Source: an uncultured Actinomycetes bacterium (GTDB lineage Bacteria > Actinomycetota > Thermoleophilia > Gaiellales > F1-60-MAGs149). From it: a DNA stretch of 34,267 nt. Below are positions 2,440 through 5,833 of the stretch, piece by piece. Within the stretch, counting starts at the first letter, position 1, and each line of letters opens with the position of its first letter. Both the position numbers and the translations under genes were made by a program. The stretch lies in assembly GCA_903873565.1 (NCBI GenBank), contig CAIQOY010000191.1, forward strand, positions 1 through 34,267. The letters are read 5' to 3'. Under the pieces are notes generated by a model, which had not been told where the DNA came from, did no database searches, and saw only the letters and a list, made by a program, of their open reading frames with translations.

Positions 2440-5400
2440 TCAGGCCCGCGCCACGCGCACGGCGCCCGTGCAGCCGTCGGCGTCGAAGGGGTCGCCCGCA
2501 GCCCCCTCCCCGACCCGCAGGTCGGTGCACAGGGTCTCGGCGGCGATCTCGTCGCCGTGGCGCTCGAGGACGCGCCGCAGCCGCTCGTCGCCGGCGATCT
2601 CGAGCACGATCCGGTCGGCGACCTCGAGGCCCGTGTCCTTGCGGCGCCCCTGGATGAAGTGGATCAGCTCGCGCGCGATCCCCTCGTCCTCGAGCGCCTC
2701 GTCGAGCTCGGTGTCCACCGCCACGGCCAGCCCGCCCTCGTCGGCGACGGCGAAGCCCTCGCGGGGCCGCGTTCGCAGCTCGACCTCGTCCGGACCCAGC
2801 CGGTGCCCGGCGACGACGATCTCGTCGCCCTCGCGGGCGTAGTCGCCGGCCTTGAGCGCGGCCTGCACGGCCGGGATGTCCTTGCCGAGCTTGGGCCCGA
2901 GGGCGCGGAAGTTCGGCACCACCTCGACGTCGAGGAGCTCGTCGACGGCATCGGCGATGCGCACCCGCTTGACGTTCAGCTCCAGCGCGATCTCCTCGGC
3001 GAGGCCCTCGACCGCGGCGCGGGCAGCGGCGTCGGGCGTGGCCACCACCGCCTCCCGCAGGGGCTGGCGCAGCTTGCGGTTGCCCTGGGCGCGCGCGGCG
3101 CGGCCGAGCGAGATCGCGGTCTGCGCCAGGCGCATCGGCACGAGCGCATCCGGGTCGGGGTCGCCGACGGCCGGCCAGCCCGCGAGGTGCACGGAGTCGG
3201 GGGCGCCGGCCGCGTGGCCGCGCACGATGCCCTGCCACAGCTCCTCGGCGAGGAACGGCATCGCCGGGGCGATCAGGCGGCAGATCTGCGTCAGCGCCCA
3301 CCACAGCGTCCGGAAGGCGGCGTCCTTGTCGGCATCGGCCTCGGCGCGCCAGAAGCGCGCGCGGCTGCCGCGGATGTACCAGGCCGAGAGGTCGTCGACG
3401 AGCGCCTCGACGGCACGCGCGTAGGCGGGCGTCCAGTAGCCCTCGAGCGCGGCGTCGCACTCGCGCACCGTCTCCTCGACGCGCGCGACGATCCAGCGGT
3501 CGAGGGCCGTCGCGGCGGGCGGGCGGCCGGCGAGATCGGCCCAGGTCGGCGCGAAGCCGTCGATCTCGGCGTAGCGGACGAAGAAGGCGTACGAGTTCCA
3601 GAGGGTGAGGAGGCGTCGCCGCACCTCGTTGGCCGGCCCGTAGCCGAAGTTCATGTTCTGCGAGGGCGTCTGGAGCGCGTACAGCCAGCGCATGACGTCG
3701 GCGCCCATCTCCTCGACGGCGTCGTCGAACCAGATCGCGTTGCCCCACGACTTGTGCATCGCTCGGCCCGTCTCGTCGTGGAGCTTCTCGTAGCCGAGCA
3801 CGGAGCGGTACGGGGCGCGGCCGACGAGCACGACGCTCATGAACAGCTGCGAGTAGAACCACAGCCGGATCTGCTCGCGCATCTCCGAGATCCAGTCCGC
3901 GGGGAACCACTTCTCCCAGTAGGCCTGGTCGGGGAGGTCGGCCGCGGTCAGCCCCTCCCCCGCGCCGGCCGCGTAGCCGCCCTCCTCGTGGGCGTCGCGG
4001 CCCCAGCCGAGCGTCGAGAACGGCACGATCCCGGCGTCGAGCCAGCAGTCGCCGACCTCGGTCACCCGCTCGGCGATCTGGCCGTCGTCGGTGCGGATGC
4101 GGATCCCGTCGATCCAGGGGCGGTGCAGCTCCTCGAGGCCGTCGAGCGGGTCGACGGCGCGCTCGCGCAGCTCCTCGATCGAGCCGATCACGGTCATCGT
4201 CCCGTCGGGCGCCCGGTAGAAGGGCAGCGGCAGCCCCCAGTAGCGCTTGCGCGAGATGCACCAGTCGCCCATGTTTCGCAGCCAGTCCTCCATGCGCTTG
4301 CCGTACTGCTCGGGCACCCACTCCACCGTGCGCGCGGCCTCGATCATCGCCTCGCGCACCGGGTCGGCGCTGATGAACCACTCCTCGACGACGCGGAAGA
4401 TCAGGTCGGTGCCGCAGCGCCAGCAGACGGGAAAGCGGTGGTCGATCGTCCCGGCGCGCACCAGGTGGCCGGAGGCGTCGAGGTGCTCGCGGATCGCGTC
4501 GGCGGCCTCGGCGCTGCCCCGGCCGGCGAGGAAGCCGTAGTCGGGCGTGAAGACGCCGGCCTCGTCGACGGGGACCAGCGCGGGCAGGCCCTCGGCGGCC
4601 CCGAGCTCGAAGTCCTCGGCGCCGCAGCCCGGCGCGATGTGGACGACGCCCGTGCCCTCGTCCGCGGAGACCATGTCCCAGGCCACGACGCGGTGGGCGA
4701 CCTCGGCCTGCGCCGGCAGGTCGTCGAACGGCCCGCGGTAGGCGCGGCCGACCAGCTCGGCGCCCGGCGCCGTGCGCTCGACGTCGGCCCCGGCCCCGAA
4801 CAGGTCCTCGACGCGGCTCGCCATCACCCAGTCGATCCCCTGCGACGTGCGCACCGCGGCGTACTCGGCGGCGGGATCGACCGCCGCCACGACGTTGGCG
4901 GGCAGGGTCCACGGGGTCGTCGTCCAGACCACGACCGCCTGCTCGGGGTCGTCGACGAACGGGAAGCGCACGTGCAGCGTCGGGTGCGTGCGGTCGCGGT
5001 AGGAGTCGATCAGCTCGTGCTGGGACAAGGACGTGCCGCAGCGCGGGCACCAGACCATCGGCCGGTTGCCGCGGTACAGCATCCCGCGGTCGTGGCACTC
5101 GCGGAGGAAGCGCCAGATGTAGGCGATGTTGGGGTCGGTCATCGTGTAGTACGACCGCTCCCAGTCCATCCACTGGCCGAGCCGGATCGACTGCCGCGTC
5201 TGCACCGCCGAGTACTCCGCCACGCGGTCGCGGCAGGCGCGAGCGAAGCGGTCGAGGCCGTACTCCTCGATCTCGCGCTTCGAGTTGAGGCCGAGCGCCT
5301 TCTCCACCTCCACCTCGACCCACAGCCCCTGGCAGTCGAAGCCGTTCTGGTAGCGCAGCTCGTGCCCCTTCATGGCGCGATGGCGCTGGATCAGGTCCTT

Positions 5401-5595
5401 CAGCGAGCGGCCCCAGGCGTGGTGCACGCCCATCGGGTTGTTGGCGGTGATCGGCCCGTCGATGAACGAGAACGGCGCGCCGCCGGCGTTCTGCTCGCGC
5501 AGCCGGTCGAACGTGCGCTCGGACTCCCACAGCGCGAGCACGCGGTGCTCGAGCGCGATGTGGTCGGGCGTGGCGGGGACGGTCGGGTAGGTCAC
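2440..5595 (-). CDS. ileS: Isoleucyl-tRNA synthetase (IleRS2 type) with GXHH signature
   Basis: The enzyme charges tRNA-Ile with isoleucine in the cytosol. It is 1051 residues from the GTG at 5595. I preferred this over the ORF start at 5658 because homologues begin near YPTVPATPDH and the longer form would overlap the upstream gene. Recognisable parts are the class I catalytic core, a zinc knuckle WCPRCGTSLSQHE, the CP1 editing domain (VVVWTTTPWTLP, HIAPGCGAEDFELG), a second CWRCG knuckle, and a long C-terminus with anticodon-binding and extra domains. The length and C-terminus fit the eukaryote-like IleRS2 class. The usual HIGH motif is replaced by GVHH (about residues 56-59), and KMSKS by AMHKS. 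No T-box leader is seen. Confidence 0.95.
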   Translation of the reverse strand: MTYPTVPATPDHIALEHRVLALWESERTFDRLREQNAGGAPFSFIDGPITANNPMGVHHAWGRSLKDLIQRHRAMKGHELRYQNGFDCQGLWVEVEVEKALGLNSKREIEEYGLDRFARACRDRVAEYSAVQTRQSIRLGQWMDWERSYYTMTDPNIAYIWRFLRECHDRGMLYRGNRPMVWCPRCGTSLSQHELIDSYRDRTHPTLHVRFPFVDDPEQAVVVWTTTPWTLPANVVAAVDPAAEYAAVRTSQGIDWVMASRVEDLFGAGADVERTAPGAELVGRAYRGPFDDLPAQAEVAHRVVAWDMVSADEGTGVVHIAPGCGAEDFELGAAEGLPALVPVDEAGVFTPDYGFLAGRGSAEAADAIREHLDASGHLVRAGTIDHRFPVCWRCGTDLIFRVVEEWFISADPVREAMIEAARTVEWVPEQYGKRMEDWLRNMGDWCISRKRYWGLPLPFYRAPDGTMTVIGSIEELRERAVDPLDGLEELHRPWIDGIRIRTDDGQIAERVTEVGDCWLDAGIVPFSTLGWGRDAHEEGGYAAGAGEGLTAADLPDQAYWEKWFPADWISEMREQIRLWFYSQLFMSVVLVGRAPYRSVLGYEKLHDETGRAMHKSWGNAIWFDDAVEEMGADVMRWLYALQTPSQNMNFGYGPANEVRRRLLTLWNSYAFFVRYAEIDGFAPTWADLAGRPPAATALDRWIVARVEETVRECDAALEGYWTPAYARAVEALVDDLSAWYIRGSRARFWRAEADADKDAAFRTLWWALTQICRLIAPAMPFLAEELWQGIVRGHAAGAPDSVHLAGWPAVGDPDPDALVPMRLAQTAISLGRAARAQGNRKLRQPLREAVVATPDAAARAAVEGLAEEIALELNVKRVRIADAVDELLDVEVVPNFRALGPKLGKDIPAVQAALKAGDYAREGDEIVVAGHRLGPDEVELRTRPREGFAVADEGGLAVAVDTELDEALEDEGIARELIHFIQGRRKDTGLEVADRIVLEIAGDERLRRVLERHGDEIAAETLCTDLRVGEGAAGDPFDADGCTGAVRVARA

Positions 5596-5641
5596 GGGCG
5601 GGCGGGTCGTTCGACCGCTGAACTGTACCCGTGCGGGGCCG

Positions 5642-5833
5642 TCAGGCCTCCGCACCACCCGGGCGCGCGCCGTAACGGCGCACCTGCTCCTCGCACCACA
5701 GCTCGAAGGCGGCGTGGCGCGCGAGGTAGCGCTCGATGGAGGCGATGCCGCCCTCGACCCAGACCTCCTCGTCCCACTCCTCGAGGCCGGTCAGGGAGGG
5801 CTCGTCGCCCCAGTCGTCGTCGTGGAACTCCAT
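5642..5833 (-). CDS. Small acidic hypothetical protein
   Basis: This is a 63-residue protein with an acidic, Trp-rich first half (MEFHDDDWGDEPS, EEWDEEVWVEGG) and a helical second half (IERYLARHAAFELWCEEQVRRYG). No known domain is recognised and there is no signal peptide or membrane segment. It lies 46 bp upstream of ileS and 43 bp downstream of the Nudix gene, all on the same strand, and is probably co-transcribed. Amino-acid composition and strand context favour a real gene, but the short length keeps this uncertain. Confidence 0.6.
   Translation of the reverse strand: MEFHDDDWGDEPSLTGLEEWDEEVWVEGGIASIERYLARHAAFELWCEEQVRRYGARPGGAEA

Follow-up and report, generated by a model that had tools for sequence, protein, structure and literature searches.

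An isoleucyl-tRNA synthetase with altered HIGH and KMSKS motifs in an uncultured actinobacterium, and the apparent relocation of a catalytic lysine among its relatives

Results

The window, that is, the whole stretch of 34,267 nucleotides that was analyzed, carries on its minus strand an ileS gene whose open reading frame starts with GTG and encodes 1072 amino acids. The following features were assigned.

2440..5658, minus strand: ileS, isoleucyl-tRNA synthetase (IleRS), type 2, minor clade; 1072 aa, assigned by TIGR00392, tree and AlphaFold2
3646..5541, minus strand: class I catalytic core with editing insertion (PF00133)
3052..3501, minus strand: anticodon-binding domain (PF08264)
2446..2991, minus strand: C-terminal domain DUF5915 (PF19302)
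5419..5430, minus strand: HIGH-motif position, G-V-H-H, residues 77-80
5437..5439, minus strand: HIGH-loop residue -3, Asn74, which is Lys or Arg in relatives without the second KMSKS lysine
3748..3762, minus strand: KMSKS-motif position, A-M-H-K-S, residues 633-637

The product was recognized as an isoleucyl-tRNA synthetase by the TIGR00392 profile (687 bits against a cut-off of 621.4, residues 35-883, a span covering the catalytic, editing, and anticodon domains), and both Pfam profiles, PF00133 and PF08264, matched it. An AlphaFold2 model built with 51 related sequences as input reached a mean pLDDT of 92.8. Among solved structures, it was most like IleRS2 of P. megaterium. The MupA and MupB profiles scored only 493.7 and 518.1 bits, far under their 1900-bit cut-offs, which rules out that the gene is mupA or mupB.

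A single ileS was found in the genome to which the window belongs (2.29 Mb in 408 contigs, 88% complete). A PF00133 search of these contigs gave no second copy: the candidates above the cut-off were read as valS (contigs C300 and C218), leuS (C16), and metG (C14), all with a canonical HXGH, and a ninth match (C167) fell under the cut-off. One IleRS per genome was likewise found in the genomes of 14 relatives. Downstream of ileS and co-directional with it, positions 116-2400 of the minus strand hold apt and genes for a MerR-type regulator, an FHA-domain protein, and pgsA, all named by eye; this neighborhood order (pgsA, FHA-domain, MerR, apt) is common to the relatives L009 and L013. The original prediction had regarded ileS as the housekeeping gene and not as an acquired second copy. 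Because it is the only ileS found, and relatives are single-copy, we agree, as far as an incomplete genome can tell.

The HIGH segment of the window IleRS reads DGPITANNPMGVHHAW, with GVHH encoded exactly at 5419-5430. In a HMMER alignment, GVHH was placed opposite HVGH of the P. megaterium and T. thermophilus IleRS2, and it conforms to the published G/AXHH pattern, whose first residue is G or A and whose third and fourth are H. The same motif was present in L009 (93% identity), L010 (91%), and L011-L018 (about 80%), all from other assemblies, and in dozens of relatives and nearly all related minor-clade sequences. The replacement of HIGH by GXHH that had been predicted at this site was thus borne out by translation, alignment, and relatives. 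The string given there for the usual IleRS2, DGPPFATGLPHYGH, was wrong and should read DGPPFANGLPHYGH, as in three actinobacterial HXGH enzymes (L158-L160), which leaves the main point unaffected. GVHH is real because relatives from separate assemblies share it; chance or a sequencing or assembly error is ruled out on the same ground; a sequencing error had been named in the prediction as a finding that would overturn it.

The prediction had also stated, rightly, that GXHH in IleRS2 has been linked to mupirocin resistance. G/AXHH occurs in 86 of 163 IleRS2, with at least two inferred origins (Brkic 2023, PMC10485003). It raises the mupirocin Ki of IleRS2 about 200 to 800-fold with activity kept, and abolishes activity in IleRS1 (PMC10485003). 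Hyper-resistance was measured for the D. radiodurans enzyme (ALHH) and for P. megaterium and T. thermophilus enzymes carrying the swap, and is cited for S. griseus (PMC10485003). The same work divides IleRS2 into a major and a minor clade, with GXHH ancestral in the minor one. The GVHH of the window IleRS is, therefore, a known, published kind of change and not a rare one.

A tree of 128 IleRS, in which 7 IleRS1 rows served as the outgroup, placed the window enzyme within IleRS2 (support 100); a position outside that clade had been named as refuting the prediction. The first of two IleRS2 clades (n = 26, KMSKS kept) contained T. thermophilus, P. megaterium, and actinobacterial enzymes with HXGH or GXHH; the P. 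megaterium and T. thermophilus enzymes thus fall in the major clade, together with GXHH enzymes that keep KMSKS. The second (n = 95; SH-aLRT 100) held the window IleRS along with sequences from Chloroflexi, a planctomycete, Armatimonadota, Clostridia, WOR-3, Eisenbacteria, Elusimicrobia, and Woesearchaeota, and its KMSKS was degenerate: xMHKS (x = A, P, E, or D), KFSKT, and others. By members and motif, this clade corresponds to the published minor clade. None of the assayed enzymes of PMC10485003 that could be placed in the tree fell within it.

Textbooks present HIGH and KMSKS as near-invariant motifs that define the class I synthetases, and the second lysine of KMSKS is described as almost always present (PMC5370406). 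The window IleRS lacks the K-M-S-K-S signature and reads AMHKS, with the first lysine replaced by alanine, the serine by histidine, and only the second lysine, K636, kept. It also carries the segment GPI-TANN, as opposed to GPP-TANG. Both features were overlooked in the original prediction. The running text of PMC10485003, whose Fig. 2b carries KMSKS alignments, contains no discussion of KMSKS variation and no mention of HXXT, KXHH, loss of the second KMSKS lysine, or a HIGH-loop lysine. The pattern expected of compensation as in arginyl-tRNA synthetase (ArgRS), a HIGH-loop base with the second KMSKS lysine lost, was found in 48 distinct relatives but not in the window IleRS, which has Asn74 and Lys636.

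IleRS searches of the window's order (129 species) and of other groups retrieved about 140 further sequences, and the enzymes of the order fell into a series of motif types. Type (a), which includes the window IleRS, combines TANN and GVHH with xMHKS or xMHRS. Type (b) has TANK, GVHH, and MHGS (L195, L215-L217, L220, L225, and L234), and type (c) has TANK, [G/A/P/L]XHT, and MHGS; the latter is the most frequent type of family f2 and also occurs in f53, f48, and f32. In type (d), represented by eight sequences, TANR with a one-residue insert accompanies VHT and MHAS or MHSS. Type (e), GPKTANTTDGLGVHH with MHGS, comprises L211 and L214 of genus g241; in these two, the HIGH-loop lysine lies at another place, adjoining a two-residue insert. 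Altogether, 48 distinct enzymes of the order lack the second KMSKS lysine (MHGS, MHAS, or MHSS), and most of them also lack the last histidine of HIGH (VHT). All 48 have a lysine or arginine in the HIGH loop, usually at -3, the position used by ArgRS without KMSK. Type (c) is the only IleRS of a single-contig genome of 97% completeness (G190); it must therefore work there, unless some unrelated enzyme charges isoleucine in its place. The AlphaFold2 model of a type (c) enzyme (L119) had a mean pLDDT of 91.5 and the IleRS fold, closest to P. megaterium IleRS2.

Several further motif variants were observed. Enzymes of family f44 (L130 and L132-L135) combine GVHH with MHYS and are the only group lacking a base at both sites. 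A HIGH-loop lysine that might explain them was not found there; lysines at 638, two residues further on, and at 60 are candidate substitutes. Seven IleRS from Clostridia and Bacilli metagenome-assembled genomes (L061, L063, L066, L068, L076, L082, and L087) have KLHH or KIHH together with KFSKS or KFSKT; their lysine at the first HIGH position lies outside the published G/AXHH definition. Three actinobacterial IleRS1 (L149, L152, and L153) read HAGT or HLGT, with the last HIGH histidine changed to threonine, and loss of this histidine is accordingly not unprecedented. One in-frame TAG was noticed inside the match to a VHT-type IleRS (L179, genome G488).

Among 178 distinct parsed minor-clade sequences, 125 have K or R at 636 without a HIGH-loop base, 48 have the base without K636, 5 have neither, and none has both. 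The five all belong to family f44, and the rule of a base at one of the two sites is thus not absolute. In a focused set of 82 sequences, a HIGH-loop Lys or Arg was present whenever the second KMSKS lysine was missing, and only then (49 versus 33). With the five f44 rows set aside, columns 74 and 636 were the only two of the alignment to separate both groups perfectly. On the 82-row tree, loss of K636 together with the HIGH-loop gain occurred essentially once, plus one reversal, each trait needing 2 changes, so the statistics of this pair rest on few events. TANR with its insert arose five times, always with MHAS or MHSS at a site about 560 residues away (5 of 5 independent pairs; sign test, P = 0.0625).

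The reversal is represented by L199 (genome G470), which lies within the VHT/MHGS clade as the sister of L182 (ultrafast bootstrap 100, SH-aLRT 99). It carries TANG, GVHH, and MHKS: each of the three sites has reverted, but its remaining marker residues are still those of the clade. A whole-gene recombinant was rejected, as segment identities stay with VHT-type relatives over most of the catalytic core, the KMSKS flank included. Over its N-terminal 80 residues the identities are level; a short exchange confined to the HIGH loop is therefore possible.

Discussion

Following the published mechanism, His79, the third residue of GVHH, would do the job of the first HIGH histidine, and its steric clash with mupirocin should exclude the drug. 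Hyper-resistance of the window IleRS is plausible and a good prediction, but an extrapolated one, because no assayed enzyme that could be placed belongs to its minor clade; and it is predicted rather than demonstrated, because the published mechanism depends partly on the KMSKS loop (PMC10485003), which is changed here. The enzyme might instead not be especially resistant, if GVHH were an old minor-clade background with no bearing on the drug and if the changed KMSKS loop shifted drug binding in its own way. GXHH is near universal in the minor clade across Clostridia, Armatimonadota, and Woesearchaeota, as well as inferred to be ancestral there, and such a spread does not need recent drug selection; moreover, the text of PMC10485003 reports no assays of minor-clade enzymes. 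We nevertheless consider this reading unlikely, since in three IleRS2 enzymes swapping the motif, in both directions, shifted the Ki by a factor of 200 to 800 (PMC10485003), and every IleRS2 is less sensitive to mupirocin than IleRS1 to begin with. An artifact, with GVHH arising by error or the gene being an acquired second ileS, can be given hardly any credence. A further copy could be missing from so fragmented an assembly, but the motif recurs in independent assemblies, the other PF00133 matches above the cut-off have their own identities, relatives carry one IleRS, and the gene sits among co-directional housekeeping genes in an order shared with L009 and L013.

For the series in the window's order, a competing explanation is shared ancestry only: the HIGH-loop base and the loss of the KMSKS lysine would each have arisen once, on one branch, and been inherited together. 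Two changes per trait do suffice on the 82-row tree. This explanation would leave unaccounted for the reversal of both sites in L199, along with that of threonine to histidine, against a background of retained marker residues, as well as the five independent co-switches of arginine plus insert with Ala or Ser across some 560 residues; nor did any column besides 74 and 636 separate the groups perfectly. We regard it as quite improbable.

We favor a functional link between the two sites. In the proposed series, the enzyme with Asn74, GVHH, and AMHKS, as found in the window, would represent the ancestral state of its order, in which the first KMSKS lysine has gone and K636 is the one that remains. 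K636 would then have been exchanged for Gly, Ala, or Ser only in enzymes with a HIGH-loop Lys or Arg, usually at -3, and the last histidine would have become threonine afterwards. The task of holding the ATP phosphates would thus pass from the KMSKS lysine to the HIGH-loop base, in line with what has been proposed for ArgRS. The window gene is probably a housekeeping minor-clade IleRS2 in which His79 bars mupirocin and which marks the starting state of a takeover from K636 by a HIGH-loop base; its activity, mechanism, and mupirocin Ki we infer from sequence and from analogy with characterized enzymes. With somewhat less assurance, the motif patterns lead us to lean towards the broader proposal that in this order the HIGH loop acquired, separately from ArgRS, the catalytic lysine formerly supplied by the KMSKS loop, that the last HIGH histidine was lost in the process, that on five occasions the lysine gave way to arginine plus insert along with a corresponding change in KMSKS, that one lineage went back at all three sites, and that the window IleRS shows the state of origin.

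Taken alone, the window adds modestly to what is known: one more GXHH IleRS2, with intrinsic mupirocin resistance predicted for a freshwater actinobacterial lineage and with KMSKS changed too. The order-wide series outweighs it in importance. If true, it offers a housekeeping family with coordinated loss, relocation, and regain of HIGH and KMSKS positions, in which rewiring of an essential active site without loss of function becomes testable. What appears to be new relative to the literature is that a second signature is altered and, in the window's order, that the catalytic lysine has apparently been relocated; a search of open-access articles gave no paper on this.

The closest parallel to the relocation is ArgRS. 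In ArgRS without canonical KMSK, a HIGH-loop lysine is reportedly crucial (Sekine et al. 2001, JBC). The two ArgRS that we compared, one with AKEMHVGH and KPFKTREG and the other with VGPMHVGH and VRMSKRTG, display the same exclusion: a lysine stands three residues before HIGH when KMSK is degenerate and is absent when it is intact. This -3 register is the same as in the VHT/MHGS IleRS. ArgRS is, however, a different family, the window IleRS itself has asparagine at -3, and in IleRS the change is superimposed on GXHH and accompanied by loss of the last histidine. As a separate observation, the ArgRS model TIGR00456 strongly matched other actinobacterial genomes, and no match at E 1e-50 was obtained in G000 or G190, whose ArgRS are perhaps divergent.

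With the G/AXHH IleRS2 of the published minor clade, the window enzyme shares type 2 membership, the exchange of the first and third HIGH residues, and an ancestral GXHH, and Chloroflexi and Planctomycetota are represented both there and in the present data set; the window IleRS differs in that its KMSKS is altered as well. MupA and MupB resemble it as IleRS-family enzymes conferring mupirocin resistance through the same target class. They are acquired, whereas the ileS of the window is a native chromosomal gene.
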